Assembly: GCF_000381925.1 (NCBI RefSeq)
Contig: NZ_KB907307.1
Location: 3,224,001-3,288,000 of the forward strand
Direction of reading: 5' to 3'
Source of the DNA: Nocardia sp. BMG111209
GTDB taxonomy: Bacteria > Actinomycetota > Actinomycetes > Mycobacteriales > Mycobacteriaceae
DNA: 64,000 nucleotides
Shown here: piece after piece, positions 3,914 to 25,959 of the stretch
Numbering within the stretch: the first letter of the stretch is position 1
How the letters are laid out: each line of letters starts with the position of its first letter
Notes under the pieces: generated by a model
The model's database searches: none
What the model saw: the letters and a program-made list of their open reading frames with translations, nothing else
Told to the model about the DNA's origin: nothing
Program-made: the position numbers and the translations under genes

Positions 3914-4801
3914 TCAGGGTAGGGCCGCCTCGGATTCGGCCGGGCGCAGCAGGTTTTCGGCGGCGGTGTAGGGGTCGCCGTGCCCGGCGGCCACGGCGGC
4001 GGCGAGGGTGTCCAGGTCCGGATGGGTGCGCAGGCGGGTCTGGGCCAGGGACAGGATCTGGGCCCGGGCCCGGGCCGTGCGGCGCTCGGGGGTGTCGGTG
4101 CGGTGGTGGGCGTCGACGGCCTCGAGCAGTTCGGGGATGCCCTCGTCGCGCGCGGCGACGAGTTTCAGGATGGGGGCGTGGGTTTCCTGGCGCAGTTCGC
4201 GGACGGTCCGGTCCGCGCCCTCGCGGTCGGCCTTGTTGACCACCAGGATGTCGGCGACCTCCAGCAGGCCCGCCTTCGCGGCCTGAACCGCGTCTCCGGC
4301 ACCGGGATTCAGGATCACCAGGGTCGGGTCGGCGACGGCGGCGATCTCGATCTCGGACTGTCCGACGCCGACGGTCTCCAGCAAAATCAGGTCGTAGCCG
4401 AGTCCGCCGAGCAGGCGGATGGCCGCGGGTACCGCGGCGGCCAGGCCGCCGAGATGGCCGCGGGTGGCCACCGAGCGGATCAGCACGTCGGGATCGTTGA
4501 TGTGCTGCGCCATCCGGATCCGGTCGCCGAGCAGCGCGCCGCCGCTGTACGGCGAGGACGGGTCCACTGCCAGCACGGCCACCCGCTGACCGCGGGCACG
4601 GTAGCCCGCGACCATCGCGGCGATGGTGGTCGACTTACCGGCACCCGGCGGGCCGGTCACGCCGACCACCCGGATCGGCCCGGGTTCGAGCACGGCCAGG
4701 ACCTCGTCGCGCCGGTCGCTCTCGATCAGGCTCAGCAGCCGACCGGTGGCCCGCATCGAGCCGGACCGGGCCGCGGCCAGCAATTCGGCGACGGTTGTCA
4801 C
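3914..4801 (-). CDS. meaB: MeaB-type GTPase chaperone of a B12-dependent acyl-CoA mutase
   Basis: A 295-residue G3E GTPase with Walker A GPPGAGKST, the switch tract ETVGVGQSEIEIA and the base-recognition motif NKAD. MeaB proteins gate adenosylcobalamin loading and repair of methylmalonyl-CoA mutase-like enzymes. The GTG at 4801 is preceded by GGGAGG at good spacing; the much longer frame open upstream is low-complexity and overlaps the thiolase, so I rejected it. A split mutase sits about 18 kb away in the same island (21607-23585), the likely partner by inference. Confidence 0.92.
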   Translation of the reverse strand: MTTVAELLAAARSGSMRATGRLLSLIESDRRDEVLAVLEPGPIRVVGVTGPPGAGKSTTIAAMVAGYRARGQRVAVLAVDPSSPYSGGALLGDRIRMAQHINDPDVLIRSVATRGHLGGLAAAVPAAIRLLGGLGYDLILLETVGVGQSEIEIAAVADPTLVILNPGAGDAVQAAKAGLLEVADILVVNKADREGADRTVRELRQETHAPILKLVAARDEGIPELLEAVDAHHRTDTPERRTARARAQILSLAQTRLRTHPDLDTLAAAVAAGHGDPYTAAENLLRPAESEAALP

Positions 4802-4991
4802 AGCGCCTCCCGTTCGCGACCGAGCGATACCGAGAACGTCTGCGGCCGAGCGATATTCGGCCGGTGTGGCACGGCCGGGTGCGATTGCCGCCACCGCGCC
4901 GCGCCGGGCCGCGGCCGCGCGACCGCATCCTGCGACCGCCGCACGGCCGCAGCCGGGAAACCCGGTGCGGCCGAGGGCGACGTGCCCGGGA

Positions 4992-6152
4992 TCACGGGGC
5001 GGGGACCTCGATGACGGTCGCCGAACCCATACCGCCGCCCGCGCACAGCGCGGCGATGCCGAAACCGCCACCGCGGCGGCGCAGTTCGTGCACCAGAGTG
5101 ACGATCATGCGAGCGCCGGTGGCGGCCACCGGGTGGCCCAGCGAGCAGCCGCTGCCGGAGTAGTTGACGATCTGCTCGTCCAGATCCAGGGCGCGGATCG
5201 CGGCGATCGGGACCGAGGCGAAGGCCTCGTTGATCTCGATCAGCTTGACCGCGGACAGCGAGATGCCCGCGCGCGCAACGGCCTTGGTGATCGCCTCGAT
5301 CGGCGCCAGGCCGGTGTCGGCCGGGTCGACGCCGACCGACGCCCAGGAGCGGATGTAGCCGAGGGCGGGCAGGCCGAGGCGGTCGCTGGCGATCGCCAGG
5401 GTGGCGGCGCCGTCGTTGGAGCCCGAGGCGTTACCGGCGGTGATGCTGAAACCCTCGATCTCCGGGTGCAGGACCTTCAGGCCCGCCAGGCGCTCCAGGC
5501 TGGTGTCGCGGCGCGGGTGCTCGTCGACGGCGAACAGGCCGTGCGGGGTCTCGATCGGGACGATCTCCTCCTTGAACCGGCCCTCATCGATCGCGGCGAT
5601 CGCGTTGCGGTGCGAGCGCAGCGCCCACGCGTCGAGCTCCTCGCGGGAGATGCCCGACTTCACCGCGGTGTTCCAGCCGACGGTGATCGACATGTCCATG
5701 GTGGGGGCGTCGGCCCGCTCCGGATGGCTCGGCGAGGTCCACGGATCCTGCCACTGCTCGTTGCCCTCCTCGTCCCGGCCGATGCGGAAACGCGAACGCG
5801 GCGAGGTGGATTCGGAGTTCACGCCACCGGCGATGATCAGCTCGTCCATGCCGGCGCGGATGCTGCCGGCCGCGGACTGCACGGCCGCCATCCCCGCGGC
5901 GCAGTGCCGGTTGTTGGCCAGGCCCGAGGAGCCGGTCAGCCCGGCGGTGATCGCCGCGTGGCGGGCCAGCACGCCGCCGCCGTAACGGCCCTCGCCGAGG
6001 ATCACGTCGTCGACGTGCGCGCCGTCGAGCTGCTCGGCGACCGCGCTGACCACATGGTGGGACAGATCGAAGGCGTTGGTGTCCCGCAGCGTGCCCTTGC
6101 GGGCGGTTCCGATCGGCGCGCGTAGCGCGGAGACGATGACGGCTTCAGGCAT
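4992..6152 (-). CDS. acetyl-CoA acetyltransferase (thiolase)
   Basis: A 386-residue thiolase. The acyl-enzyme cysteine is in NNRHCAAGM near residue 84; NEAFA, the C-terminal GHP and CAGGGMG supply the histidine and second cysteine of the active site. It would perform the final thiolytic step of beta-oxidation or a related condensation. Its ATG overlaps the acyl-CoA ligase stop by 8 bases, so the two are translationally coupled. A 190-base gap follows before meaB. Confidence 0.93.
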   Translation of the reverse strand: MPEAVIVSALRAPIGTARKGTLRDTNAFDLSHHVVSAVAEQLDGAHVDDVILGEGRYGGGVLARHAAITAGLTGSSGLANNRHCAAGMAAVQSAAGSIRAGMDELIIAGGVNSESTSPRSRFRIGRDEEGNEQWQDPWTSPSHPERADAPTMDMSITVGWNTAVKSGISREELDAWALRSHRNAIAAIDEGRFKEEIVPIETPHGLFAVDEHPRRDTSLERLAGLKVLHPEIEGFSITAGNASGSNDGAATLAIASDRLGLPALGYIRSWASVGVDPADTGLAPIEAITKAVARAGISLSAVKLIEINEAFASVPIAAIRALDLDEQIVNYSGSGCSLGHPVAATGARMIVTLVHELRRRGGGFGIAALCAGGGMGSATVIEVPAP

Positions 6153-7590
6153 GGGAGCTCTCCATTTCAGCGACGAGGTTGCGGCGCAACAGCTTTCCGG
6201 TTTCGGTCTTGGGCAGTTCGGGGCGGAACACGATCGCGTCCGGGGTCTTCGAGGACCGCAGCCGGTCCTTCACCCAGGTGCGCAGTTCCTCCGGGTCGAG
6301 CGGCGCGGCGCCGTCGGCGACCACGACCACGGCGACCAGCCGCTGCCCCCACTCCGGATCGGGGACGCCGATGACCGCGACCTCGGTGATGCCGGCGTGT
6401 TCCAGCAGCACGTCCTCGATCTCGGCGGGCGCGATGTTCTCACCGCCACGGATGATGGTGTCGTCGGCGCGGCCCTCGATGAACAGGTAACCGTCGGCGT
6501 CGAGGCGGCCCAGATCCCGGGTGGGGAACCAGCCCTCGGCATCCAGCGCGCTGCGGCCGCCGTATTCGCCGGAGATCTGCTCACCGCGGACGAACACCAG
6601 GCCGGTCTCGCCGGCGCCGATCGGCTCGTCGGCCTCACTGCGGATCTGGATCTCGATACCCGGCAGCGACCGGCCGACCGAACCCAGCCGGTCGCGGACC
6701 GCGGGATCGTCGGATCCGAACGCCTCGCGGTGATCGTCGGGGCCCAGGACCGCCACCGAGGAGGCGGTCTCGGTCAGGCCGTAGGCGTTGACGAATCCGG
6801 TCGACGGGAAGACCCGCAGGGCGTGTTCCAGCACCGGCCGCGGGGTGCGCGCGCCGCCGTAGGACAGGCTCGCCAGCGTGGGCACGTTCGCGTCCTCGCC
6901 GTCGACGGCGGCCACGATGCGCGCGAGCATGGTCGGCACCACCATCGCGTGGGTGATCTGCTCGCGCCGCACCGTCGCCAGCCACTCGGCGGCGTCGAAC
7001 GCGGACAGGTAGACCACCCGGCGGCCGGAGTACAGGTTCGACATCAGGTTGGTCAGGCCCGCGATGTGGTAGGTCGGCACCGCGACCAGGGAGGCGGCGC
7101 CCTCCTCGGCGGCGCCGAAGTCCACGGTGTTGAGCAGATAGGCCATCAGGTGACGGTGCCGCAGCAGGGCCGCCTTCGGCTCCGAGGTGGTGCCGCTGGT
7201 GTAGATGATGACCGCGACCGCGTCACCGTCCCAGGGCGCCTCGATCTCGGGGGCCTCGCCGGCGTCCCCGGCGACCAGGTCGTCGAGATCGGCCGGGCGC
7301 AGGACCAGCGCGCCGGGATGCCGGTCGATCAGCGCGCTGAGTTGCTGGTCGCCGAGGCGGTAGTTCAACGGGACGAAGGGCACGCCCGCGAGCGCGGCGC
7401 CGAACAGCGCCACCGGATACGCGAGATGGTTGGCGCCCAGATACAGCACCGCCGGGTACTGCCCGAAGCGCGCCGCCGCCCGCCGCGCCTGCGCGAGCAG
7501 GTCCGCGGCCGACAACGACCGATCATCGACCGTGATCACCGGTCGTTCTCCGGCCGATACGGCCATGTCTAGGATCATGCTGATGTTCAT
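6145..7590 (-). CDS. AMP-forming acyl-CoA synthetase
   Basis: A 481-residue ANL-superfamily ligase. The phosphate loop is YTSGTTSEPKAA; the adenylation motifs YGLTE and TRDLGRLDADGYLFIEGR and the C-terminal lysine tract KTETGKLLRR are all present. It activates a carboxylic acid to its CoA thioester, presumably the entry substrate of the neighbouring thiolase and SDR enzymes. The ATG at 7590 directly abuts the palindromic operator, and a TAATAT hexamer ends 4 bases before it. The message may therefore be leaderless and repressor binding would block initiation directly. Confidence 0.92.
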   Translation of the reverse strand: MNISMILDMAVSAGERPVITVDDRSLSAADLLAQARRAAARFGQYPAVLYLGANHLAYPVALFGAALAGVPFVPLNYRLGDQQLSALIDRHPGALVLRPADLDDLVAGDAGEAPEIEAPWDGDAVAVIIYTSGTTSEPKAALLRHRHLMAYLLNTVDFGAAEEGAASLVAVPTYHIAGLTNLMSNLYSGRRVVYLSAFDAAEWLATVRREQITHAMVVPTMLARIVAAVDGEDANVPTLASLSYGGARTPRPVLEHALRVFPSTGFVNAYGLTETASSVAVLGPDDHREAFGSDDPAVRDRLGSVGRSLPGIEIQIRSEADEPIGAGETGLVFVRGEQISGEYGGRSALDAEGWFPTRDLGRLDADGYLFIEGRADDTIIRGGENIAPAEIEDVLLEHAGITEVAVIGVPDPEWGQRLVAVVVVADGAAPLDPEELRTWVKDRLRSSKTPDAIVFRPELPKTETGKLLRRNLVAEMESSHA

Positions 7591-7606
7591 GAGAATATTA
7601 TTCTCA
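7590..7606. promoter_or_regulatory. perfect palindromic operator, copy 1
   Basis: TGAGAATATTATTCTCA is a perfect 17-base palindrome with one central base, in the divergent promoter of the acyl-CoA synthetase (minus) and the SDR (plus, start 39 bases past the 15-base core). The same core, GAGAATANTATTCTC, recurs at 17660-17674 in an equivalent setting. This strongly suggests one dimeric repressor controls both. The regulator is unidentified. Confidence 0.75.
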
Positions 7607-7644: not shown

Positions 7645-8409
7645 ATGCAGATCAATGGAAGCTCTGCGCTGGTCGTGGGCGGTACCGGTGGTCTCGGTGA
7701 GGCCACCGTCCGCCGCCTGCACGCCGCCGGCGCCAAGGTCGTCGTCGCCGATGTCGCCGACGAGAAGGGCAAGCAGCTCGAGGACGAGCTGGGCATCCGC
7801 TATGTGCACACCGACGCCACCAGCGAGGAATCGGTGCTGGCCGCGATCGCGGAGGCGGAGGCCCTGGCCCCGCTGCGCATCTCGGTGGACACCCACGGCG
7901 GCCCCGCCAAGGGCGGCCGGCTCGTCGGCAAGGACGGGTCCCCGCTGCCGCTCGACGGGTTCAAGATCACCATCGAGTTCTACCTGACCGCTGTGTTCAA
8001 TGTCATGCGGCTGGCGGCGGCGGCCATGGCCAAGACCGAGCCGCTGGAGGAGGGCGCCCGCGGCGTCATCATCAACACCGCCTCCATCGCCGGGTACGAG
8101 GGCCAGATCGGCCAGCTGAACTACTCCGCGGCCAAGGGCGGTGTCATCGGCATGACCCTGGTCGCCGCGCGCGACCTGTCCCCGCTGGGCATCCGCGTCA
8201 TGGGCATCGCGCCGGGCACCATCAACACCCCCGCGTACGGCAAGGCCGCCGACCAGCTGGAGCAGTACTGGTCCCCGCAGATCCCGTTCCCGAAGCGCAT
8301 GGGCCGCTCCGAGGAGTACGCGCAGCTGGCGCAGTCGATCATCGAGAACAACTACCTCAACGGCGACGTCATCCGGCTCGACGGCGCGCTCCGCTTCCCG
8401 CCGAAGTGA
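7645..8409 (+). CDS. short-chain dehydrogenase, 3-hydroxyacyl-CoA dehydrogenase-like
   Basis: A 254-residue SDR. The cofactor loop is GGTGGLG at 13-19, followed by the acidic AD of an NAD-preferring fold. The catalytic serine is in NTASIAG, with YSAAK 13 residues on. The overall pattern (long VDTHGGPAKGG loop, FPKRMG near the C-terminus) resembles type II 3-hydroxyacyl-CoA dehydrogenases (HSD17B10 group), so it probably oxidises a 3-hydroxyacyl-CoA. The ATG at 7645 has a GAGAGGG ribosome site; the TTG at 7624 is unlikely. It is followed 7 bases later by a second SDR. Confidence 0.9.
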   Translation: MQINGSSALVVGGTGGLGEATVRRLHAAGAKVVVADVADEKGKQLEDELGIRYVHTDATSEESVLAAIAEAEALAPLRISVDTHGGPAKGGRLVGKDGSPLPLDGFKITIEFYLTAVFNVMRLAAAAMAKTEPLEEGARGVIINTASIAGYEGQIGQLNYSAAKGGVIGMTLVAARDLSPLGIRVMGIAPGTINTPAYGKAADQLEQYWSPQIPFPKRMGRSEEYAQLAQSIIENNYLNGDVIRLDGALRFPPK

Positions 8410-8416: not shown

Positions 8417-9166
8417 ATGACTTCGCTGGCAGGCAAGGTCGCCTTCGTCGCCGGGGCCAGCCGCGGGATCGGCGCCACGGTCGCCGAGGCCCTGGCGGCC
8501 GCGGGGGCCACGGTCGCGGTGGCGGCGCGCTCGGAGACCGAGGGCAAGCTGCCCGGCACCATCGGTGCGGTGGCCGACCGGATCACCGCCGCCGGCGGCC
8601 GGGCGCTGCCGGTGCCGTGCAACGTCTCCGACGAGGCGTCGGTGAACGCGGCGGTGCAGTCGACCGTGGACGCGTTCGGCGGTATCGACATCCTGGTCGC
8701 CAACGCCGGGGTGCTGTGGATGGGCCCGATCGAGTCCACCCCGCTGAAGCGGTGGCAGCTGTGCCTGGACGTCAACCTCACCGGGGTGTTCCTGGTGACG
8801 AAGGCGGTGATCCCGCACGTGCGGGCGCGCGGCGGCGGCTCGCTGATCGCGATCACCACCACCGGTGTCGACATGATCGACCGGGGCGCCAACGCCTACT
8901 GGGTGTCCAAGGCGGCCGCCGAGCGGCTGTATCTGGGACTGGCGTCGGATCTGAAGGGCGACAACATCGCCGTCAACTGCCTCAGCCCGTCCCGGGTGGT
9001 GCTCACCGAGGGGTGGGCGGCCGGTGGTGGCGGCGTGCAGATCCCACCGGAGGCCGTCGAGCCGCCGGAGGCGATGGCGAATGCCGCCGTACTGCTGGCC
9101 GGACAGGATGCCACCGGCATCACCGGCACCGTCCAGCGCTCGGAATCGCTGGTGGCGCAAGGCTGA
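8417..9166 (+). CDS. short-chain dehydrogenase/reductase
   Basis: A 249-residue SDR with cofactor loop GASRGIG, NAG motif (VANAGVLW) and catalytic YWVSK. The position normally held by the catalytic serine, 13 residues before the tyrosine, is threonine (AITTTGVDM), an uncommon but tolerable change. It probably interconverts an alcohol and a ketone on a CoA or steroid-like substrate. It is the second gene of a two-gene operon ended by a strong hairpin at 9180. Confidence 0.88.
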   Translation: MTSLAGKVAFVAGASRGIGATVAEALAAAGATVAVAARSETEGKLPGTIGAVADRITAAGGRALPVPCNVSDEASVNAAVQSTVDAFGGIDILVANAGVLWMGPIESTPLKRWQLCLDVNLTGVFLVTKAVIPHVRARGGGSLIAITTTGVDMIDRGANAYWVSKAAAERLYLGLASDLKGDNIAVNCLSPSRVVLTEGWAAGGGGVQIPPEAVEPPEAMANAAVLLAGQDATGITGTVQRSESLVAQG

Positions 9167-10360: not shown

Positions 10361-10448
10361 GCGCCGGATTCCGTTGCCGCACAGGCCGGGACGCGGCCCG
10401 GTAGCCGCGCTCGACGCGGGTATCGCCGCCGCGCGTACCCCGGCCCGC

Positions 10449-11195: not shown

Positions 11196-11281
11196 ATTTC
11201 CCACCGTACGGGAAAACCCGCCGCGGCCGCCGCACCCCTGTTCCCGACAGTGCAACGGCCGCAGCGGGTTCCGGCCATCCG

Positions 11282-12073: not shown

Positions 12074-12283
12074 CAACTGTATTCACTTTCCTCGAGGTGT
12101 TCGTGTGCGGAGGCCGGGACCGCTGCCTTCGGTCCCGGCCGCACACGGATCCCCGCGGGCGTGCGTACCCGCTCTGCCATCCCCATGTCAGTGCCCGCGG
12201 TGATCTGGCCCGAGTAGACAACACACAGCGATCTCTCGAGATGTTTGCGATCATGAAGAATGCAATGGACCGCGATACGCGAA

Positions 12284-12314
12284 CCGGCCCCGGGACCGTC
12301 GGTCCAGGGGCCGG
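12284..12314 (-). terminator. stem-loop terminator after paralogue 2
   Basis: An inverted repeat of CCGGCCCC-GGACC with GGTCC-GGGGCCGG, 13 pairs with one mismatch and a 3-base loop, lies 25 bases beyond the stop of the minus-strand gene at 12340. It would insulate that gene from paralogue 1 further downstream. Confidence 0.75.
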
Positions 12315-12339
12315 AAAGTGTTGCCGTGGTGGCGAATAC

Positions 12340-13363: not shown

Positions 13364-13390
13364 GTGACCCGGGGCGATGCCCCGGGCCAC
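13364..13390 (-). terminator. stem-loop terminator of the acyl-CoA dehydrogenase operon
   Basis: CCCGGGGC-GAT-GCCCCGGG, extended by GTG/CAC with one mismatch, forms a strong hairpin 24 bases after the enoyl-CoA hydratase stop. It marks the end of the four-gene minus-strand operon that starts at 17571. Confidence 0.7.
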
Positions 13391-13413: not shown

Positions 13414-14181
13414 TCAGCCCTTCTTGGCGGTGAGCCGTGTGACGATCGCCGCGAAATCCTCGTTCTGGAAGGACTGGTTCTCCTGGCTCAGCGCGTAGTC
13501 CAGGGTGGCCAGCACCGCGCGCTCCAGATGAATGTTCAGAATGCGCTTGGTGGATTCCACCGCCTGCTGCGGCAATTCCAGGATGCGCTTCGCGGCGGCG
13601 AGGGCCTCGGTCAGCGGATCGGCCACCACATGGTTGACCAGGCCCATCTCCCTGGCCCGGTCCGGGGTGATCCGCGCGCCGGTGATGGCGTACTCCTTGG
13701 CCAGCAACAGGCTGGTGTGCAGCGGCCAGGTCAGCGGGCCGCCGTCGGCGGCGACCAGGCCCACCTGGACGTGCGGATCGGCCAGGTGCGCGGTCTCGGC
13801 CATGTACACGATGTCCGACAGCGACACCAGGCTGCAGCCCAGGCCGACCGCGGGACCGTTGACCGCGGTCACCACCGGCACCCGGCAGCGGACCATGCCG
13901 AGCACGATGTCGCGGCCGTCGGCGATCGTCTTGGCCCGCAGCTCGTCGTTCTGGCGCAGCTCGTTCAGGTAGGTGAAGTCGCCGCCGGCGGAGAACGCCT
14001 TGCCGGCGCCGGTCAGCACCGCGACCCGGGCGCCGCGGTCGGCGGACAGCCGGTTCCACAGCGTGGCCAGGCCGTGGTGCAGATCGTCGTCGACCGCGTT
14101 CAGCTGCTCGGGCCGGTTCAGGGTGATGATCCGCAGCGGCCCTTCGGCCTCCACGCGGATCGCATCGGGCATGTCGTACAA
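13414..14181 (-). CDS. enoyl-CoA hydratase/isomerase family protein
   Basis: A 255-residue crotonase-fold enzyme. The first oxyanion-hole tract is AGKAFSAGGDFTYL near 60 and the second is NGPAVGLGCSL near 105. It would hydrate or isomerise an enoyl-CoA made by the acyl-CoA dehydrogenase pair just upstream. I chose the TTG at 14181 (MYDMPD...) because GGAG sits 6 bases ahead of it and similar mycobacterial proteins start MYDMP. The ATG at 14172 is the alternative. It is the last gene of a tightly packed operon, one base after the preceding stop. Confidence 0.9.
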   Translation of the reverse strand: MYDMPDAIRVEAEGPLRIITLNRPEQLNAVDDDLHHGLATLWNRLSADRGARVAVLTGAGKAFSAGGDFTYLNELRQNDELRAKTIADGRDIVLGMVRCRVPVVTAVNGPAVGLGCSLVSLSDIVYMAETAHLADPHVQVGLVAADGGPLTWPLHTSLLLAKEYAITGARITPDRAREMGLVNHVVADPLTEALAAAKRILELPQQAVESTKRILNIHLERAVLATLDYALSQENQSFQNEDFAAIVTRLTAKKG

Positions 14182-15271: not shown

Positions 15272-16184
15272 GGTCGATCTCCTCCAGGCGGACGGGGAAC
15301 AGTTCGGTCGAGGTCAGCACGCGCCGAAGGTGGATGTGCGCGAGGCATTCCCAGGTGTTGCCGATGCCGCCGTGCACCTGGATCGAGGTCTCGCAGATGG
15401 TGCGGGCGGCGCGGGCGCAGTACAGTTTCGCGATCCGGGCGGCCTGGACCGCCTCGGCGGCGGGCAGCTCGTCGACGGCCCAGGCGGCGTGCCGCAGCAC
15501 GCTGACCGAACCCTCGATCAACGCCTGGCTCTCCGCCAGCAGATGGCCGATCGCCTGGTACGAGCCGATCGAATGTCCGTACTGCTCACGGATTTTCGCG
15601 TACTCGACGGCGAGGGTCTGGGCGCCGCGGGCGGCGCCGAGCAGATCGGCGGTGGTCGCCACCAGGGCCAGCGCGTGCCACTGCGCGGCCTGGTCGGCCG
15701 ACAGATCGCCGATCGACTGCAACGCGCCGGTCAGGGCCGCGTCGACGCGGGTGGGGTCGGCGCCGGCGAGCGGCTCGCCGACCTCGCCGGACCGGATCGC
15801 GTCGTCGGTGACCACCAGCGCGTGATCCGCGCCGCGGGCGTCGATCGCGCGCAGGCCGCCGAAGCGGGGTCCGGCGTCGACGGCGACGGTCCAGGCGCCG
15901 GTGTCGCCGTCGGGCTGGCCGCGCAGATCGTCGGCCAGCACCGGGCCCAGGAACGGCACGTCCACCAGGCCGCGGCCGAATTCCTCGGCCACCAGCGCCA
16001 CCTCGACGCCGGAGGCGCCGTCGGAGCGCAACGCGCGCCAGCCGGCGTTGTCGACGGCCTTCTCCAGCCGGGTCAGCCGGGTGGTGTCGTCGAGCTCGGC
16101 CACCGAGCCGGGGCCCAGGTCGGAGGCCAGTTTGGCGGCCGCGTCGCGCAGCTGCCGCTGCTCACTGGTCAGTCGAACGTCCAT
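15258..16184 (-). CDS. acyl-CoA dehydrogenase, smaller subunit of a probable heteromer
   Basis: A 308-residue acyl-CoA dehydrogenase-like protein, shorter than the usual 380 or so. The N-terminal half is degenerate, while the C-terminal helical half keeps YAKIREQYGHSIGSYQAIGH and QVHGGIGNTWECLAHIHLRR. The glutamate in GNTWEC is a candidate catalytic base. It overlaps both neighbours (14 bases with the larger subunit, 23 bases with the ligase), so the products are probably made in fixed ratio and form a complex. Confidence 0.88.
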   Translation of the reverse strand: MDVRLTSEQRQLRDAAAKLASDLGPGSVAELDDTTRLTRLEKAVDNAGWRALRSDGASGVEVALVAEEFGRGLVDVPFLGPVLADDLRGQPDGDTGAWTVAVDAGPRFGGLRAIDARGADHALVVTDDAIRSGEVGEPLAGADPTRVDAALTGALQSIGDLSADQAAQWHALALVATTADLLGAARGAQTLAVEYAKIREQYGHSIGSYQAIGHLLAESQALIEGSVSVLRHAAWAVDELPAAEAVQAARIAKLYCARAARTICETSIQVHGGIGNTWECLAHIHLRRVLTSTELFPVRLEEIDLGLS

Positions 16185-17571
16185 ACTGCTCCTTGAGAAC
16201 TCGGCGCAGCACCTTGCCGGACGGCAGGCGCGGAATTTCGGGCACGAACAGCACCCGGCGCAGGCGCTTGTATCCGGCGAGCCGGTCGGCGACGAGGGTG
16301 CGCAGCTGCTCCTCGGTCGGCGGCGCGACGGCGGACACCGCGACCGCCGCGACGATCGCCTCGCCGTCGGCCTCGTCCGGGATGCCGAACACCGCGGCGT
16401 CCACGACGCCGGGATGACTCAGCAGTACGCCCTCGATCTCGGCCGGCGCCACCTGGAAACCCTTGACCTTGATCATCTCCTTGGACCGGTCGGTCAGCCG
16501 GATCCAGCCCTCGGCGTCGACGGAGCCGACGTCGCCGGTGCGGTACCAGCCGTCGTCGAACGCGTCGGCGTTCGCGTCGTCGGGCAGGTAGCCGCTCATC
16601 AGTGACGGCGAGCGCAACTGGATCTCACCGATCCCGTTCGGCGGCAACGGTTCTCCGGTGTCCAGATCGATCACGCGGACCCGCACCCCGGGTACGGCCC
16701 GGCCGACGCTGTCGAGCCGGGCGCCCTCGATCGGATTGCACGCGATCACCGGCAGCTCGCTGGCGCCGTAGGCCGGTACCCAGCCGACACCCGTTCGGCG
16801 CGTGACGGTTTCGGCGATACCGGCGGTGACCGGGGTGGCGCCCCACATGATGTAGCGCAGCGAGGACAGGTCGTAGGATTCCAGATCCGGGTGCTGGGCC
16901 AGCGCCAGGGCGATCGGCGCCACCGCCATCTCCACCGTGATCCCGTCCTCGGCAATGCATTTCAGCATCCGGTCCAGATCGAAGCGGCGGTGCAGGCGGA
17001 TGCGGGCGCCGACGGCGAGCGCGGTCTCGATGTTGAGCAGGCCGAGGATGTGCGAGGGCGGGGTGAGCACCTGGATGCGGTCGGCGGCGGTGAGTGCCAG
17101 CGCGACCCGCCAGTGCTCGACCGCGGCCGCGAAGGAGGCGTGGGTGTGCCGGACCGCCTTCGGCAGGCCGGTGGTGCCGGAGCTGAACACGAGCACCGCC
17201 TCGGCCTCGGGTTCGGGCACGGTGTCGGGGCAGACCACGGGGATGATCGGCTCGTCCAGCGACAGCATCGGCATGAGTTCGGCCAGGACCGGCTGGTCGC
17301 CGACCGCCGCGGCGGGCTGGGTGAGGATCAGCGCGTGTTCGGTCTCGGCGCGCTTCCAGGCCGGGCTGATCAGCACCACCGAGGCGCCCAGCTGCCAGAT
17401 CGCGCGGACCGCGACGACGAATTCGGGCCGGTTGCCCGACATCAGCGCCACCCGGTCGCCGCGGCGCACGCCGCGCTCGCGCAGGGTGGCCGCCAGGCCG
17501 CGGGCCAGGGCGTCGAGCCGGGTGCGCGAATACGAGCGGTCGTCGAAGACCAGCGCGATCGGCTCGTTCAT
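16162..17571 (-). CDS. AMP-forming acyl-CoA synthetase
   Basis: A 469-residue ANL ligase. The phosphate loop is FSSGTTGLPKAVRHTH; YGASELPVIACNP, YRTGDVGSVDAEGWIRLTDR and the C-terminal lysine of LPSGKVLRRVLKEQ follow. It activates an acid for the downstream dehydrogenase pair and hydratase, being the first gene of that operon. I chose the ATG at 17571, preceded by AGGAG and GCAGGG; a GTG at 17598 would add 9 residues. It is only distantly similar to the ligase at 6145, so the two probably act on different acids. Confidence 0.92.
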   Translation of the reverse strand: MNEPIALVFDDRSYSRTRLDALARGLAATLRERGVRRGDRVALMSGNRPEFVVAVRAIWQLGASVVLISPAWKRAETEHALILTQPAAAVGDQPVLAELMPMLSLDEPIIPVVCPDTVPEPEAEAVLVFSSGTTGLPKAVRHTHASFAAAVEHWRVALALTAADRIQVLTPPSHILGLLNIETALAVGARIRLHRRFDLDRMLKCIAEDGITVEMAVAPIALALAQHPDLESYDLSSLRYIMWGATPVTAGIAETVTRRTGVGWVPAYGASELPVIACNPIEGARLDSVGRAVPGVRVRVIDLDTGEPLPPNGIGEIQLRSPSLMSGYLPDDANADAFDDGWYRTGDVGSVDAEGWIRLTDRSKEMIKVKGFQVAPAEIEGVLLSHPGVVDAAVFGIPDEADGEAIVAAVAVSAVAPPTEEQLRTLVADRLAGYKRLRRVLFVPEIPRLPSGKVLRRVLKEQYGRSTDQ

Positions 17572-17659: not shown

Positions 17660-17674
17660 GAGAATAGTATTCTC
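17660..17674. promoter_or_regulatory. perfect palindromic operator, copy 2
   Basis: GAGAATAGTATTCTC has perfect 7-base arms around one base. It matches the core at 7591-7605 except at the central position. It lies between the divergent ligase operon (minus) and the reductase (plus, start 37 bases past the site; copy 1 leaves 39). The matched spacing argues for a real shared operator. Confidence 0.75.
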
Positions 17675-17711: not shown

Positions 17712-18770
17712 ATGGCGAGACCCCCAATGTTTCAGCGCGCGACCGTGACCCGGATCGTGAAGGAGAGTGTCGACGCCCGCACGTTCGTGCTGGCGCCCCA
17801 CGACGCGCCCATCACCTACCGGGCCGGGCAGTTCTGCACGTTCCGGGTCGCCGTGGACGGCCGCGAGCTGTTCCGGTCCTATTCGATGTCCAGCGCGCCG
17901 GAAACCGACACCGAGTTCATGACCACCGTGAAGCGGGTCCCCGGCGGCGCGGTCTCCAACTGGATGCACGACAACCTCGCCGAGGGCGACGAGGTGGAGA
18001 TCAGCCAGGCCGCGGGCCGGTTCTGCCTGCGCGACACCGATGTCCCCCTGCTCGGATTCTCCGGCGGCAGCGGTATCACGCCGATCATCTCGCTGGCCAA
18101 GAGCGCGCTGGCGACCACCTCGCGGCGGGTGCGGCTGCTGTGCGCGGACCGCGACCAGCCGTCGATGATCTTCGAGCAGGCACTCGCCGACCTGGTCCGG
18201 CAGTATCCGGACCGGCTCGAGGTGACCCGCCACCTGGACGCCGTCGCCGGTTTCCTCACCCCCGACGCGATCCGCGAGTTCGCCGGGGTCGACGGCCACG
18301 CCGACAGCTACATCTGCGGCCCGGAACCCTTCATGGAGATGATCGAGCTGGCCCTGCCCGGCCCGGGGCTGATCTACAGCGAGCGCTTCGGCGCCGCCGC
18401 ACCGGTCATCCCGGGCGAGGAACCGGACGCGGACACCGTGAAGACCGCGGGCGCCACCACCGCCACCACCCCGCCCGCCCCCGCGGTGCTGGAGGAGGGC
18501 ACGGTGACGATCATCCTCAACCGCAAGAAGAAGTCGGTCCCCCGCAAGGACGGCGAAACCATCCTGGAGAGCGCCCGCCGCGCCACCCTGAGCCCCCCGT
18601 TCTCCTGCGAGGCCGGCAACTGCGCCACCTGCATGGGCAAGATCCTCGACGGCAAGGCGACCATGCGGCAGAACAACGCTCTCGCCGACGACGAGGTCGA
18701 GGACGGGTACATCCTGACCTGCCAGGGAGTGCCGGATTCGGCGTCGATCACGGTGACGTACGACGAGTGA
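17712..18770 (+). CDS. FAD- and 2Fe-2S-containing oxidoreductase reductase component
   Basis: A 352-residue modular reductase. An N-terminal FAD domain (RSYSMSSAP near 56-64), an NAD(P)-binding domain (GFSGGSGITPIISLAK near 115 and CGPEPFM near 200) and a C-terminal plant-type ferredoxin domain (CEAGNCATC, then LTCQG) follow in order. It passes electrons from NAD(P)H to an oxygenase or hydroxylase, as KshB and HmpX/PaaE-type proteins do. No oxygenase is encoded in this window, so its partner must lie elsewhere. AGGAGG precedes the ATG by 9 bases. It carries the second operator in its promoter. Confidence 0.92.
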   Translation: MARPPMFQRATVTRIVKESVDARTFVLAPHDAPITYRAGQFCTFRVAVDGRELFRSYSMSSAPETDTEFMTTVKRVPGGAVSNWMHDNLAEGDEVEISQAAGRFCLRDTDVPLLGFSGGSGITPIISLAKSALATTSRRVRLLCADRDQPSMIFEQALADLVRQYPDRLEVTRHLDAVAGFLTPDAIREFAGVDGHADSYICGPEPFMEMIELALPGPGLIYSERFGAAAPVIPGEEPDADTVKTAGATTATTPPAPAVLEEGTVTIILNRKKKSVPRKDGETILESARRATLSPPFSCEAGNCATCMGKILDGKATMRQNNALADDEVEDGYILTCQGVPDSASITVTYDE

Positions 18771-19537: not shown

Positions 19538-20593
19538 TCAGGCGTCGTGTTCGCCGAGGGACGGGGGTGGGCCGTAGGCCGGGGTGTGGCCGGTGATGCG
19601 GATGGGACTGCCCACCAGGCGGTAGTCGCCGGCGGTGATGACCGATTGGGGGGTGGTGTCGAGGGACTCGGGGAGGGTGCGGACGGCGGCGGCGGGGATT
19701 CCCAAGGGGCGCAGGCGGTTTTCCCAGTTGACGGCCGTGTCGGCGGCCAGGGCTGCCCTGACTGCGGCGAGGACCTCGTCTCGGCGTTCCGCGCGTTCGG
19801 CCATGGTGGGGAAGCCGTCGACCGACGCCTCGGTGGCGAAGGTCTTCCAGAAGCCGTCGTGGGTGATGAACAGGGCCAGGTGGCCCTCGGCGGTCGGGAA
19901 CATCTGGGCCGGAACGTAATACGAGTGGGCGCCGAAGGGGCGGCGGGTGGGGGCGGTGCCGGTGTTGAGGTAGGCCGAGGCGTGGTAGTTCAGCTGGGAC
20001 AGCATCACGTCGCGCAGGTTCACGTCGACCTGGCCGCCGCGGCCGGAGACGATCTGGGCCAGTAGGCCCAGGGCCGCGGTCAGGCCGGTGGAGTTGTCGG
20101 CGGAGGAGTAGCCGGGCAGGGTCGGGGGGCCCGCGGGGTCGCCGGTCATGGCGGCTACGCCGGTGGCGGCCTGGACGATGTAGTCGAAGGCCGGGTCGTC
20201 GCCGCCGTCGAGGCCGAAGCCGGTGATGGCGACGCAGACGATCCGCTCGTTGTAGGCGCGCAGTGTGTCGTAGGTGAGGCCGAGGCGGCGGATCGCCGAG
20301 GGTTTCAGGTTCACCAGTAGCGCATGGGAATTCGCGGCCAGGTCGTGCAGGCGCTGTTGGCCCTCGGGGGTGCCGAGTTCCAGGCGGATGCTGCGCTTGC
20401 CGCGGTTGAGGCTGGCGAAATAGGTGTCGCTGACCTGGCGGGAGATCTCGCCGGTCGGTGGTTCGATCTTGGTGACCTCGGCGCCGAGGTCGGCCAGCAT
20501 CATCGTGGCGTAGGGGCCGGCGAGCATGGTGCCGACCTCGAGGATCCGGATGCCCGCGAGCGGACCCGGATCCCCCTCCCCCGCCGCGCTCAC
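19538..20593 (-). CDS. type III CoA-transferase (CaiB/BaiF family)
   Basis: A 351-residue CaiB/BaiF protein with the N-terminal GIRILEVGTMLAGPYATMML and ADLGAEVTKIEPP tracts and GKRSIRLEL. Family members move CoA between carboxylic acids through an aspartyl-CoA intermediate; the SSADNSTG tract is a candidate for that aspartate. A few members, such as alpha-methylacyl-CoA racemase, epimerise 2-methylacyl-CoAs, which would suit the mutase encoded upstream. Its GTG overlaps the LLM gene stop by 4 bases, so the genes are coupled. Confidence 0.9.
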   Translation of the reverse strand: MSAAGEGDPGPLAGIRILEVGTMLAGPYATMMLADLGAEVTKIEPPTGEISRQVSDTYFASLNRGKRSIRLELGTPEGQQRLHDLAANSHALLVNLKPSAIRRLGLTYDTLRAYNERIVCVAITGFGLDGGDDPAFDYIVQAATGVAAMTGDPAGPPTLPGYSSADNSTGLTAALGLLAQIVSGRGGQVDVNLRDVMLSQLNYHASAYLNTGTAPTRRPFGAHSYYVPAQMFPTAEGHLALFITHDGFWKTFATEASVDGFPTMAERAERRDEVLAAVRAALAADTAVNWENRLRPLGIPAAAVRTLPESLDTTPQSVITAGDYRLVGSPIRITGHTPAYGPPPSLGEHDA

Positions 20594-21546
20594 CGCAGCT
20601 CCGCGGCCAGGCTCGCGATCATCTCCCGGGTGCGGCGCTTGGATTCGCGCAGTTCGTCCAGGCTGTCGCCGATGGGGAGCAGGCGCACGGACATGTCGGT
20701 GGCGCCGGCGGCGGCGTAGCGGCGCAGGCCGGCCGCGATCTGGTCCTCGTCACCGGCGATGCAGATATCGCCGACGTTCTGCGCGTCGCCCTGGTCCAGC
20801 AGGCGCTGGTAGTTCGGCGAGGTCTCGGCCTCGGCGAGGATGCGGTTGGCGCGCGCCTTGGCCTCGTCGACCTCCGACGGGCGGCACAGGCAGACCGGCA
20901 GGCCCGCGACGATGCGCGGGGCCGGCCGGCCGGCGTCGGCGGCGGCCTTGGTGATCTTGGGGGCCACGTGGTCGGCGATGGCGCGCTCGTCGGCCATCCA
21001 CAGCACGGTGCCGTCGGCCTGCTCGCCGGCGATGCGCAGCATCACCGGGCCCAGCGCGGCGACCAGGACCGGCAGCGGCGACACCGGGCCGAGGTCCAGC
21101 GGGTTGTGCACGGTGAACGTATCGTTCTCGGCGTCGGCCTGACCGGGGCCGGCCAGCGCCGCGTTCAGCACCTCGAGGTAGTCGCGGGTGTACGCGGCGG
21201 GCTTCTCGTAGGGCAGGCCGAGCATATCGCTGACGATCCAGTGGTGCGACGGGCCGACACCCAGCACCAACCGGCCGGCGGCCGCGGTGTGCGCCGAAAC
21301 CGCTTGGCGGGCAAGGGCGATCGGATGTTGCGCCTGCAACGGCACCACGGCCGTGCCCAATTCGATCCGGGTGGTCTTCATACCCATCAGTGCGATGGTG
21401 ATCAGCGCGTCGAAGTCGCTGGGCAGCTGCGGAATCCACGCGGTGTCCAGGCCCGCGGCCTCGGCCCACTCGATATCGGCGAGCATCCGGGTGAGTTTGC
21501 GGGTCGCGTCGCCCTTCTCGGGGCCGATCATCACACCGATGCGCAC
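20590..21546 (-). CDS. LLM-class (F420-dependent type) oxidoreductase
   Basis: A 318-residue TIM-barrel protein of the luciferase-like monooxygenase superfamily, starting VRIGVMIGPEKG at a GTG with GGAGG 6 bases ahead. The tracts GTAVVPLQAQHPIALARQA and LGVGPSHHWIV are typical of mycobacterial F420-dependent members. It probably catalyses hydride transfer to or from F420 on an unknown substrate, though flavin use cannot be excluded. It lies 60 bases after the mutase small subunit and is coupled to the CoA-transferase, which ties it to the mutase pathway. Confidence 0.88.
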   Translation of the reverse strand: MRIGVMIGPEKGDATRKLTRMLADIEWAEAAGLDTAWIPQLPSDFDALITIALMGMKTTRIELGTAVVPLQAQHPIALARQAVSAHTAAAGRLVLGVGPSHHWIVSDMLGLPYEKPAAYTRDYLEVLNAALAGPGQADAENDTFTVHNPLDLGPVSPLPVLVAALGPVMLRIAGEQADGTVLWMADERAIADHVAPKITKAAADAGRPAPRIVAGLPVCLCRPSEVDEAKARANRILAEAETSPNYQRLLDQGDAQNVGDICIAGDEDQIAAGLRRYAAAGATDMSVRLLPIGDSLDELRESKRRTREMIASLAAELR

Positions 21547-21606
21547 GTTGTCCTCCAGGTGTTCAATGATTGTTGCTGTGGCGCTGCGGATCACGCCGAT
21601 ATGCGC

Positions 21607-23610: not shown

Positions 23611-23627
23611 TGAGAATGCCAATACCA
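23611..23627. promoter_or_regulatory. asymmetric motif, copy 2
   Basis: TGAGAATGCCAATACCA lies in the divergent promoter between the mutase operon and the HSDL2-type SDR. Its first seven bases equal the left arm of the operators at 7590 and 17660. The whole resembles 17681-17697. Confidence 0.3.
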
Positions 23628-23671: not shown

Positions 23672-24526
23672 ATGGCTGAGCAGCGCACCCTGGCCGACCG
23701 CACAATGGTGATCTCCGGCGCCAGCCGCGGGATCGGCCTGGCGATCGCGGTGGCGGCCGCCCGGCAGGGCGCGAACGTGGTGCTGCTCGCCAAGACCGCG
23801 GAGCCGCATCCCCGGCTGCCCGGTACGGTGCACACCGCCGCGGCCGAGATCGAGGCCGCCGGCGGGCAGGCGGCCGCGGTGGTCGGCGATGTGCGCAACG
23901 AAGAGGATGTGCAGCGCGTCATCGATACCGCCGTCGAGAAGTTCGGCGGCGTGGACATCTGCGTCAACAACGCCAGCGCCATCGCCACCGAGCCCACCGA
24001 ACATCTGTCGGCGAAGAAGTTCGGGCTCATGCAGGACATCAATCTGCGCGGCACCTTCCTGCTCACCAAGGCCGCGATCCCGTTCCTGCGCAAATCCGCG
24101 AACGCGCACGTGGTGACCATCGCCCCGCCGCTGAACCTGTCCCCGTACTGGCTGGGCGTACATCCGTCCTACACGTTGTCCAAGTACGGGATGACGCTGC
24201 TGGCGCTGGGCTGGGCGGCCGAGTACGCCGAGGCCGGTATCGCCTCCAACTGCCTGTGGCCGGAGACCTTCATCGCCACCTCGGCGGTCGCGAATCTGCA
24301 GGACGGCGAGAATCAGCTCGCCGCCGCGCGCAGCCCGGAGATCATGGCCGACGCCGCGGTGGCGATCGTGTCCCACCCGGCCCGCGAGTTCACCGGCCGG
24401 GCCCTGATCGACGCCGAGATGCTGACCGAGCACGCCGGGGTCACCGATCTGTCCCGCTACGGCGGCGGCGACCACCCCACCCCGGATCTGTTCCTGGACA
24501 CCGCGATTCCCGAGAACTACCGCTAG
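23672..24526 (+). CDS. HSDL2-like short-chain dehydrogenase
   Basis: A 284-residue SDR with cofactor loop GASRGIG, the NNASAI tract and YTLSK catalytic pair. The VTIAPPLNLSPYW tract is characteristic of the HSDL2 (hydroxysteroid dehydrogenase-like 2) group, in which the classical serine is displaced. The SCP-2 domain of eukaryotic members is absent. The reaction is unknown, probably a 3-hydroxy- or 2-methyl-3-hydroxyacyl-CoA oxidation in this context. AAGGAG precedes the ATG. First gene of a plus-strand operon of three. Confidence 0.9.
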   Translation: MAEQRTLADRTMVISGASRGIGLAIAVAAARQGANVVLLAKTAEPHPRLPGTVHTAAAEIEAAGGQAAAVVGDVRNEEDVQRVIDTAVEKFGGVDICVNNASAIATEPTEHLSAKKFGLMQDINLRGTFLLTKAAIPFLRKSANAHVVTIAPPLNLSPYWLGVHPSYTLSKYGMTLLALGWAAEYAEAGIASNCLWPETFIATSAVANLQDGENQLAAARSPEIMADAAVAIVSHPAREFTGRALIDAEMLTEHAGVTDLSRYGGGDHPTPDLFLDTAIPENYR

Positions 24527-24565: not shown

Positions 24566-24991
24566 GTGACATCTGCCGACACCACGCGCGGCGAACTCTG
24601 GGAGGCGGGCCTGCGGGTCCGCCGCGAGGTCGTGGGCGCGGAATACGTCGACCGGGCGCTGGCCGGCGCCGACGACTTCCAGTTGCCCATGCAGGAACTC
24701 GTCACCGAGTACTGCTGGGGCACGGTGTGGACGCGCGACGGGCTGGACCGCCGCACCCGCTCGATGCTGAATCTGGCAATGCTGACCACGCTCAACCGCT
24801 CGGCCGAATTCGCCACCCACGTACGCGGCGCGCTCACCAACGGGGTCACCGAGGAGGAGATCCGGGAAGTGCTGCTGCAGGCCACGATCTACGCCGGGGT
24901 GCCTGCCGGGGTGGAGGCGTTCCGGATCGCCGGGCCGATCCTGGCCGAGCACCGGGCCGCGCAGGCCGAGGCCGAGGAGTCCCGGGCATGA
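24566..24991 (+). CDS. carboxymuconolactone decarboxylase family protein
   Basis: A 141-residue CMD-family protein. The conserved core LNLAMLTTLNRSAEFATHV and NGVTEEEIREVLLQATIYAG matches the PcaC type, including the histidine of EFATHVRGAL, and the redox CxxC of the AhpD branch is missing. True 4-carboxymuconolactone decarboxylases act in protocatechuate catabolism, but no other gene of that path is present. It more likely handles a lactone or beta-keto acid of the local pathway. GTG start with GGAAAGGA upstream, 39 bases after the SDR. Confidence 0.88.
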   Translation: MTSADTTRGELWEAGLRVRREVVGAEYVDRALAGADDFQLPMQELVTEYCWGTVWTRDGLDRRTRSMLNLAMLTTLNRSAEFATHVRGALTNGVTEEEIREVLLQATIYAGVPAGVEAFRIAGPILAEHRAAQAEAEESRA

Positions 24992-25044
24992 GCGGTCAGG
25001 GGCCGGAGGCGGCAGCGGAGCGTCACCACGGAGGCCACCCGTCC

Positions 25045-25959
25045 ATGCCCGATGGAAACAGCATGAGTGAAACCGTCTCCGGCCCGGTCGCTTTCATCGG
25101 ACTGGGCAATATGGGCACGCCGATGTCGCGGCGCCTGGTCGAGGCCGGGATCGACGTGGTCGGCTTCGATCCGGCCGAATCCGCCCGCGCCGCACTGGTT
25201 TCCGCCGGTGGCCGGGTCGCGGACACCGCGGCCGCGGCGGTCACGGGCGCGGAGTACGTGATCCTGATGCTGCCGACCTCGGCGATCGTGGAGGCGGTGC
25301 TCGGTGACGAGGCGGTGCTGGCCGAACTCGTGCCCGGCACCGTGGTCGTCGATATGAGTTCCTCGGAACCCGAATCGACCCAACGGCTTTCGGCCGCGCT
25401 GGCGGAGCGGAAGATCCTGCTGGTCGACGCCCCGGTCTCCGGCGGCGTGGCCGGTGCGAACGCGGGCACGCTGGCGCTGATCGCCGGCGGCCCGGCCGAG
25501 GCCATCGCCCGGGTCGCCGGGCTGCTGGCGCCGCTGGGCCGGTTGCAGCACGTCGGCGCGAGCGGCGCCGGGCACGCGGTGAAGGCGATCAACAACCTGA
25601 TGTCGGCGATCCACCTGCTGGGTTCGTCGGAGGGGGTCGCGATCGGGCAGCGCTTCGGCGTGGATCCGGCGGTGCTGATCGACACCATCAACATCTCCTC
25701 CGGGCGCAGCGCCTCCACCGAACTCAAGTTCCCGAAGTTCATCCTGCCCGGCACCTACGACTCGGGTTTCGCGATGACGTTGATGGTCAAGGACATTCGC
25801 ATCGCGACGGGGCTGGCGGCGGCGGTCGGCGCGCAGACCCCGTTGAGCGAGCGGGCCGTGGAACTGTGGGCGGCGGCGCTCGGCGACCTCGGCCCCGGCT
25901 CGGACCAGACCGATATCGCCCGCTGGGCCGGCGTGACGCACGACACCGATCCGGCCTGA
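25045..25959 (+). CDS. NAD(P)-dependent oxidoreductase, 3-hydroxyisobutyrate dehydrogenase family
   Basis: A 304-residue beta-hydroxyacid dehydrogenase. The N-terminal Rossmann motif is FIGLGNMGTPMSRRL, the substrate loop is DAPVSGGVAGANAGTLA and the catalytic lysine lies in GHAVKAINNLM. It would oxidise a 3-hydroxyisobutyrate-like acid, which suits branched-chain degradation next to a methylmalonyl-type mutase. I chose the ATG at 25045 for the GGAGG 10 bases ahead; an ATG at 25063 (MSETVSG) with GGAAA is almost as good. Last gene before a strong bidirectional terminator. Confidence 0.92.
   Translation: MPDGNSMSETVSGPVAFIGLGNMGTPMSRRLVEAGIDVVGFDPAESARAALVSAGGRVADTAAAAVTGAEYVILMLPTSAIVEAVLGDEAVLAELVPGTVVVDMSSSEPESTQRLSAALAERKILLVDAPVSGGVAGANAGTLALIAGGPAEAIARVAGLLAPLGRLQHVGASGAGHAVKAINNLMSAIHLLGSSEGVAIGQRFGVDPAVLIDTINISSGRSASTELKFPKFILPGTYDSGFAMTLMVKDIRIATGLAAAVGAQTPLSERAVELWAAALGDLGPGSDQTDIARWAGVTHDTDPA

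Follow-up and report, generated by a model that had tools for sequence, protein, structure and literature searches.

A putative B12-dependent catabolic pathway of Actinomycetota with two separable gene modules

The window analyzed here is a stretch of 64,000 nucleotides from the 9.14-Mb genome of Nocardia sp. BMG111209 (C1:3224001-3288000); coordinates below are window positions unless contig C1, C2 or C4 is given. Between positions 3914 and 25959, it carries an island of coenzyme A (CoA)-dependent catabolic genes, including a split B12-dependent mutase with a large (mutL) and a small (mutS) subunit. Judged from sequence comparison, the island represents a genuine, conserved pathway that divides into two separable modules, as indicated by its gene content, synteny, co-occurrence and separability, by conserved regulatory DNA and by a residue signature of the mutase. 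Module 1 would consist of a CaiB-type CoA-transferase, MutL/MutS, a MeaB-type GTPase and a distant crotonase, called ECH', and would act on a dicarboxylic intermediate. Module 2, comprising ligA, acdS/acdL, a second crotonase, the SDRs, ligC, a thiolase, an LLM oxidoreductase and a ferredoxin or reductase, would activate an acid and shorten it by beta-oxidation-like steps. No description of this cluster was found in the literature searched, which covered titles and the openings of abstracts, with subscription journals mostly outside the coverage.

Gene content, synteny and separability

Gene families were assigned by Pfam and NCBIfam profile scans, with curated cut-offs for NCBIfam, and selected proteins were compared with PDB sequences. 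All families that an earlier reading of the island (the original prediction) had listed are present in these scans. The genes form three divergent units. In unit A, ligA, acdS, acdL and the crotonase (minus strand) diverge from a PaaE-like reductase (plus); in unit B, mutL, mutS, LLM and CaiB (minus) diverge from sdr3, a CMD protein and a hydroxyisobutyrate-dehydrogenase-like gene (plus); in unit C, ligC, thiolase and MeaB (minus) diverge from sdr1 and sdr2 (plus). The prediction that one 22-kb region holds every step type is not supported as worded: ECH', a further two ligases and an amidohydrolase are encoded 358 kb from it. Nor is the island one continuous block: about 4 kb of other open reading frames (ORFs) at 9389-13140 (ORFs with no Pfam family and one for an SMP-30-like protein) and a Uma2-family ORF at 18867-19454 interrupt it, none of which was seen in the related loci examined.

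Many of the named proteins closest to the window mutase come from Nocardia. Synteny was followed in 18 named loci with mutL of at least 74% identity (L054-L071), several of which are truncated by contig ends. All 18 have CaiB downstream of mutS, and LLM is found between the two in 16; ligA is present in the retrieved DNA of 12, and MeaB or thiolase in that of seven. The gene set keeps its synteny in named loci of Mycobacterium/Mycolicibacterium and Actinomadura, and both Mycolicibacterium frederiksbergense (L054) and Actinomadura rifamycini (L058) possess a near-unbroken series mutL-mutS-LLM-CaiB-ligA-acdS-acdL-crotonase, followed by sdr1 and MeaB or thiolase genes. Among 12 class-level regions outside the order, CaiB follows in eight and is missing in three (G608, G451, G497), while G529 ends at a contig end. 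Four genomes with mutL of about 50% identity (G178, G237, G257, G364) show none of these neighbor genes at 44% identity or more. The CMD and hydroxyisobutyrate-dehydrogenase-like genes, regarded earlier as core members, are restricted to near relatives, with 35-42% matches within 20-30 kb in a few class-level regions; CMD is located beside sdr3 in L007 at 81%, and the dehydrogenase-like gene falls outside the conserved set.

Pseudomonadota relatives with the same mutase residues have no LLM beside the mutase. Billgrantia pellis (L076) displays the order ECH'-mutL-mutS-CaiB-MeaB, two gammaproteobacterial bins (L075 and L197) ECH'-mutL-mutS-MeaB without CaiB, L074 mutL-mutS-CaiB, and L217 ECH'-mutL-mutS-CaiB. 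L076 adjoins DctM/NMT1-like transporter genes and an IclR gene, and L217 adjoins TctA/TctB.

The large mutase subunit is encoded in 58 of 150 Nocardia genomes. Among 397 genomes drawn from the order, 46 (own genome included) carry it at 86% identity or more, and 39 of these belong to one genus, g18, which by inference from the protein names of the matches is Mycobacterium; one g18 member, G144 (4.4 Mb), is without mutL. The order-level identities jump from 86% to 52%, with nothing between among the matches found. In the class, 46 of 394 genomes drawn have mutL at E <= 1e-220, versions of 76-78% identity occur elsewhere in the class, and those of Pseudomonadota reach 55-59%.

Within Nocardia, mutL, acdL, thiolase and ECH' travel together. 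Of 148 genomes, 61 carry acdL and 63 thiolase (62 at 73% identity or more), including all 61 with acdL. Both mutL and acdL are present in 56, at a spacing of up to 15 kb in 31, of 15-60 kb in nine, farther in three and on different contigs in 13. Five genomes have acdL without mutL; the reverse is found in G813, plus G837 (possibly outside those draws). ECH' was detected in 55 of the 148, all of them mutL-positive. The mutL-positive genomes without a match to it are G856 and G858, which are 85% and 88% complete, and G837, which the draw may have missed. None of the five acdL-positive, mutL-negative genomes is among the 55, and two of them, G015 and G021, are listed as negative. Independent regulation of the operons combined with a lack of co-occurrence between the mutase and the ligase/dehydrogenase operons, named in the original prediction as what would speak against a common pathway, is not what is observed. 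The common pathway itself is supported by synteny, by co-occurrence that extends across contigs and by a palindrome common to the acdL-side, thiolase-side and ECH' promoters.

Four of the five acdL-positive, mutL-negative genomes (G021, G777, G790 and G847, not G015) were read as 20-kb stretches. Each contains ligA, acdS, acdL, crotonase, sdr1, thiolase and a ferredoxin or reductase, and in none were mutL, mutS, CaiB, MeaB or ECH' found (45% identity over half the length). Since these stretches keep Module 2 only, mutL, mutS, CaiB, MeaB and ECH' behave as a detachable module, and the mutase, which had been placed at the center of the whole pathway, is part of that module. LLM is kept in three of the four, and therefore goes with the beta-oxidation part. 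In G790 and G847, LLM adjoins sdr3 at the expected mutL-mutS site, where the mutL promoter box remains, with 0 and 1 mismatches, respectively.

The mutase, ECH' and the accompanying enzymes

In alignments to 1req and 4r3u, Tyr54, Arg172 and Ala208 of MutL correspond to what we take to be Tyr89, Arg207 and Tyr243 of methylmalonyl-CoA mutase (the numbering of His244 and Gln197 is assumed likewise). Tyr89 and Arg207, which hold the free carboxylate, are kept, active-site Tyr243 is replaced by Ala, and the His244 and Gln197 positions are aligned and kept. Methylmalonyl-CoA mutase (1req, 2xij, 6oxc) is of the same family and has the Tyr89, Arg207, His244 and Gln197 positions in common with MutL, but MutL differs by its Ala, by TQCG instead of THRG, by its own clade and by its ECH' partner. 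It is not filed as a methylmalonyl-CoA mutase because the tested residue Tyr243 is absent, and it is not assigned to iaa either.

A survey of 170 distinct homologues gave Tyr/Arg/Ala in 82, Tyr/Arg/Tyr in 61, Phe/Gln/Tyr in 21 and Ile/Gln/Tyr in five, the first site being unreadable in one; the third site is thus Ala in 82 and Tyr in 88. In a quick tree of 85 rows, which leaves out the L214 and L216 mutases and has long-branch warnings elsewhere, all 32 Ala rows (three from Pseudomonadota) are on one side of one branch (SH-aLRT 100). The best PDB match of MutL (7.9e-156) is the 2-hydroxyisobutyryl-CoA mutase HcmAB (4r3u), which has a separate large subunit too, but carries Ile (Ile90) and Gln where MutL has Tyr and Arg. 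The same test returned Ile/Gln for four HcmA-type homologues; as this group matches the HcmA pattern in the 4r3u alignment, it controls the residue mapping. The Phe/Gln pair, presumably the mark of isobutyryl-CoA mutase, is likewise replaced by Tyr/Arg in MutL and is seen in 21 other homologues.

Two operons, L214 and L216, are called iaa-like from gene content only, as they hold a CaiB-type gene, a split mutase, a dehydrogenase, a ligase and large unlabelled genes. An Ala208 shared with iaa-type mutases was expected and was not found, as both keep Tyr243.

ECH' of the window genome is located at C1:2887379-2888098, adjoining ligX-amidohydrolase-ligY. In relatives of the class beyond the order, as in Actinomadura rifamycini, it is found beside mutL, often divergent from this ligase-amidohydrolase-ligase set (ligX, PF04909, ligY). 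The distance between ECH' and mutL ranges from 1.7 to 359 kb in 30 genomes compared on one contig. In 16 genomes picked for a test, ECH' was present in 14/14 with mutL and in 0/2 without. The protein keeps the Glu of GGGAE, while the second catalytic Glu position is Gln, followed by AWGG, also in the copy of the window genome. GGGAE, Gln and WGG occur together in 14 of 17 crotonase rows; the three rows without them, two of G608 (5 and 10) and one of L217 (4), were judged not to be ECH'. The animal enzyme ECHDC1 has a crotonase fold, and the AWGG of ECH' is likened to what we take to be its WGG motif. In this ethyl/methylmalonyl-CoA decarboxylase, a conserved Glu sits within GGGAEFTT (PMC6717113), so that the GGGAE Glu is common to both; the likeness considered here is one of motif.

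MeaB, foreseen as the mutase's own, is indeed present, not adjoining the mutase, but within the thiolase operon. Its longest frame (385 aa) overlaps the thiolase gene, and the TIGR00750 match starts at residue 104; the real start is probably near 4801. CaiB, earlier described as a transferase or racemase, is closer to CoA-transferases (best match 2.3e-47) than to racemase-named chains (4e-19 to about 1e-12). The position of what is presumably the catalytic Asp of class III CoA-transferases is kept in two alignments.

The predicted hydratase belongs to the crotonase family, as foreseen, but reads GLGCS and DPH at what we take to be the two catalytic Glu positions of hydratases. As both are substituted, it is not an ordinary hydratase, and no NCBIfam model reached its cut-off among the 25 matches listed. 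The unequal acyl-CoA dehydrogenase pair resembles the IpdE1/IpdE2 pairs of steroid breakdown, the best PDB match of acdL being Tcur3483 (1.9e-43), presumably of IpdE1 type, and the best NCBIfam model of acdS being IpdE2. However, the scores are far below the cut-offs (78.9 bits against 450 for IpdE2), the best NCBIfam model of acdL is PimC (185.7 bits, below cut-off), and the PDB list of acdS is led by an ordinary dehydrogenase (4l1f, 2.5e-13), with Tcur3481 in ninth place. The LLM score exceeds the curated TIGR03564 cut-off, suggesting membership of this F420-dependent LLM family. A lone ferredoxin-like protein (family F1) replaces the PaaE-like reductase in 16 related loci.

Regulatory DNA and features of the window

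The palindrome GAGAAT-N3-ATTCTC is perfect at two positions of the window (Table 1), where 0.13 are expected at up to 3 mismatches. The window genome contains 20 sites within 2 mismatches of GAGAATANTATTCTC, and none for the reversed pattern; two of these sites adjoin ECH'-ligX, at 2888210 (2 mismatches) and 2889792 (1 mismatch). With at most 1 mismatch, the palindrome is found upstream of ligA in 22/30 loci, of the lone ferredoxin in 14/16 (largely the same gap), of the reductase in 3/9, of sdr1 in 12/17, of thiolase in 5/11, of MeaB in 6/19 and of ligC in 4/15, as well as before the ligX-linked amidohydrolase in 7/7 and ECH' in 3/7 (7/7 at 2 mismatches). Across these loci, 145 of 1828 called ORFs have it upstream. 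A sample of 1.90 Mb, made up of loci chosen for the cluster and partly counted twice, holds 99 sites, compared with 0, 0, 2 and 0 for four rearranged palindromes.

A different box, GGTATTGGCATTCTC, precedes mutL and contains the ATTCTC half-site of the palindrome. It is identical in 27 of 46 loci, has 1 mismatch in one and 4-8 mismatches in 18; in some of these 18, the start was called upstream or mutL is internal to a longer operon. Its single match in the window is near chance (0.45 expected at 3 mismatches), so that its conservation is what counts. No Rfam RNA, a cobalamin riboswitch being sought, reached the gathering threshold in the window.

A TetR gene outside the window (C1:3217731-3218384), with a box on either side, is a candidate for the regulator; no close solved or curated relative of it was found. 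In its locus (L269, C1:3206001-3226000; boxes at locus positions 11671 and 12507), it adjoins a second unequal acyl-CoA dehydrogenase pair, a P450 and a thioesterase-like gene, and a close paralogue with one box is present on contig C2 (L272). Further boxes of the genome, near which genes were named partly by eye, as in L269, precede a CMD protein, a Rieske oxygenase, an amidohydrolase and a SnoaL-like protein (L275, locus position 7322), lie by amidohydrolases (L277, L280), or accompany a pair of an acyl-CoA dehydrogenase and an aminoglycoside-phosphotransferase-like (kinase-like) protein (L274, locus positions 7545 and 9673). This pair presumably recalls the 4-hydroxyacyl-CoA routes (levulinate, ACAD10/11). 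Relatives of the L275 amidohydrolase and SnoaL-like protein also occur near the mutL cluster in G511.

Table 1. Features of the island, with window positions, strand and supporting matches
Feature	Position	Strand	Evidence
MeaB-type GTPase	3914..5071	-	PF03308 247 bits; TIGR00750 248.7 (cut-off 240.75)
Thiolase	4992..6152	-	PF00108/PF02803; TIGR01930 over cut-off
Acyl-CoA ligase ligC	6145..7590	-	PF00501 180.5 bits
Operator GAGAATATTATTCTC between ligC and sdr1	7591..7605		Palindrome, 0 mismatches
SDR sdr1	7645..8409	+	PF00106; conserved near thiolase in related loci
SDR sdr2	8417..9166	+	PF00106; present in several Mycobacterium-type loci
Crotonase-family protein, both hydratase Glu positions substituted	13414..14172	-	PF00378 131 bits (scored on 13414-14181)
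acdL, acyl-CoA dehydrogenase large partner, 362 aa	14183..15271	-	PF02770/PF02771
acdS, acyl-CoA dehydrogenase small partner, 308 aa	15258..16184	-	PF00441
Acyl-CoA ligase ligA	16162..17571	-	PF00501 225 bits
Operator GAGAATAGTATTCTC between ligA and reductase	17660..17674		Palindrome, 0 mismatches
PaaE-like FAD/NAD/2Fe-2S reductase	17727..18770	+	PF00111/PF00970/PF00175; TIGR02160 below cut-off
CaiB-type class III CoA-transferase	19538..20593	-	PF02515 269.6 bits
LLM oxidoreductase (TIGR03564)	20590..21594	-	347.9 bits, cut-off 234.25
mutS, B12-binding subunit, 133 aa	21607..22008	-	PF02310 88 bits; TIGR00640 over cut-off
mutL, large mutase subunit, 526 aa	22008..23588	-	PF01642 660 bits
mutL promoter box GGTATTGGCATTCTC	23612..23626	-	15 bp; identical in 27/46 loci
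SDR sdr3, divergent from mutL	23672..24526	+	PRK08278 405 bits (cut-off 250); conserved in related loci
CMD/PcaC-like protein (peripheral)	24566..24991	+	PF02627; PcaC-like 152.8 bits (cut-off 155.7)
3-Hydroxyisobutyrate-dehydrogenase-like protein (peripheral)	24988..25959	+	PF03446/PF14833; NCBIfam below cut-off

A 706-aa plus-strand frame at 12097-14217 was dropped in favor of the minus-strand crotonase (PF00378). Around the island, a sulfotransferase, a TetR and a carboxylesterase gene (195-3888) adjoin MeaB and are outside the conserved set. Two small, similar-looking proteins encoded in tandem at 11282-12073 and 12340-13140 have no Pfam family and look like secreted or membrane proteins. 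Another palindrome, TATGTACGGTACATA, located between genes for a MarR and an MFS protein (26521-26665), apparently belongs to a different regulatory unit.

Proposed pathway and alternatives

We infer the individual reactions, the sequence in which they occur and the assignment of a dicarboxylate as the intermediate as follows. CaiB would load CoA onto a carboxylate to give a dicarboxylyl-CoA. MutLS would interconvert a substituted succinyl-CoA and a substituted malonyl-CoA, its Tyr and Arg holding the free carboxylate and the Ala in place of Tyr243 making room for the substituent, while MeaB would guard the mutase. ECH' would then decarboxylate the malonyl-type product to a plain acyl-CoA.

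Parts of this scheme have known counterparts. The Sbm (sleeping-beauty-mutase) operon of E. coli unites a mutase, a MeaB-type GTPase, a crotonase-fold decarboxylase and a CoA-transferase, and its mutase is fused and acts on methylmalonyl-CoA. In contrast, the mutase studied here is split, the transferase is of another family and Module 2 is present; the Sbm-like gene set is fully together in L076 only and is dispersed in Nocardia. We know of no ECH' in the iaa pathway of indoleacetate breakdown. In that pathway (IaaL, IaaGH, IaaF), a CoA-transferase, a split mutase and an acyl-CoA dehydrogenase act in this order, as described in PMC8360864. Unlike the system found here, iaa is anaerobic and iaa-like mutases keep Tyr243. 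Since the parts resemble those of the Sbm operon and the middle of iaa, with another transferase than Sbm and another pocket than iaa, a rearrangement followed by decarboxylation is preferred, and in this reading the module would operate in the manner of Sbm. A conserved aerobic catabolic pathway of Actinomycetota, in which CaiB, the mutase and ECH' act in turn on a dicarboxylyl-CoA, is thus proposed tentatively, with a confidence that stays just short of even.

Several observations weigh against this proposal. CaiB is not beside mutL in G608, G451, G497, L075 and L197, which rules it out as a constant neighbor and lowered our confidence slightly, from an even balance. A common operator was predicted for the whole island; it holds for the acdL-side, thiolase-side and ECH' promoters and fails for the mutase operon, with the palindrome before mutL in 0/46 loci at up to 1 mismatch and in 4/46 at 2. 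No NCBIfam model reached its cut-off for ECH' among the 25 matches listed, and its putative role as a decarboxylase draws on a motif likeness and on analogy with the Sbm operon. The absence of CaiB, MeaB and mutS from mutL-less genomes covers the 20-kb stretches, no genome-wide search having been made. The Fisher test for co-occurrence of mutL and acdL (1e-33) is uncorrected for kinship and is not a probability of function. Finally, the window genome also carries a methylmalonyl-CoA-type mutase with its second subunit adjoining (C1:1866462, C1:1868681) and an IcmF-type homologue (C4:717659).

These additional mutases bear as well on the idea that MutLS is an accessory, ordinary methylmalonyl-CoA mutase clearing the propionyl-CoA of the pathway, with ECH' as methylmalonyl-CoA decarboxylase. 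The retained Tyr89 and Arg207, the presence of MeaB and the Sbm operon, which works in this way with methylmalonyl-CoA, speak for such a role, but the genome is already supplied with enzymes of this kind, and MutL has a fixed loss of Tyr243 and a separate clade, which makes this role rather unlikely. An iaa-like route, in which CaiB and the mutase would produce a substituted malonyl-CoA from a 2-aryl- or 2-alkylsuccinyl-CoA and acdS/acdL, not ECH', would decarboxylate it oxidatively, like IaaF, appears less probable still. It agrees with the order of the iaa enzymes given above, and acdL reads MGG, by eye, where most dehydrogenases carry YEG. However, the L214 and L216 mutases have Tyr243, acdS/acdL persist in stretches without the mutase module, and ECH' is left unexplained although all 55 ECH'-positive Nocardia genomes carry mutL.

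The gene neighborhood gives some hints on the substrate, for which the class of branched acids, as originally predicted, is plausible. In nine ECH' neighborhoods, a P450 of one family is present in six and a run of Mce/YrbE-type genes in four. The one P450 tested (G074) matches CYP150A6 (6dcd) over all 390 residues given, and of two Mce-operon proteins tested by Pfam, one is MlaE and the other Mce4_CUP1/MlaD. CYP150A5 converts beta-ionone to 4-hydroxy-beta-ionone (PMC6237146). This hints that the mycobacterial substrate might be hydrophobic, perhaps a terpenoid. The same observations would suit a bypass of a quaternary carbon, in which 2-R-succinyl-CoA would arise from a 2-methyl-2-R-malonyl-CoA (e.g., dimethylmalonyl-CoA derived from a gem-dimethyl terpenoid), letting beta-oxidation continue; the extra methyl could fit at Ala208. 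In that direction, however, a decarboxylase partner is not needed, two Pseudomonadota versions adjoin carboxylate-type transporters, and the window genome has neither Mce nor P450 genes within 40 kb around ECH', so this bypass is considered the least probable of the alternatives.

The preferred pathway, from CaiB through the mutase to ECH', has a wider form. MutLS might be a new B12-dependent acyl-CoA mutase acting on bulky, substituted succinyl/malonyl-CoA, and CaiB-MutLS-MeaB-ECH' an aerobic module of the type "rearrange and decarboxylate", built by two phyla into different pathways, namely an Mce/P450-fed lipid or terpenoid route in mycobacteria and, in Pseudomonadota, routes that neighbor carboxylate transporters. 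This we regard as possible, though with clear reserve. To our knowledge, B12 carbon-skeleton mutases are described for a small number of substrate classes. The clade marked by a single fixed change in the active site, present in 58 of 150 Nocardia genomes and in 39 of the inferred Mycobacterium, suggests a new activity worth assaying. From it, growth dependent on B12 would be expected as a trait of soil and opportunistic mycobacteria, in which mutL and ECH' mutants would share a phenotype. The data also point to a catabolic module that is gained or lost as a unit, with its promoter box left behind.

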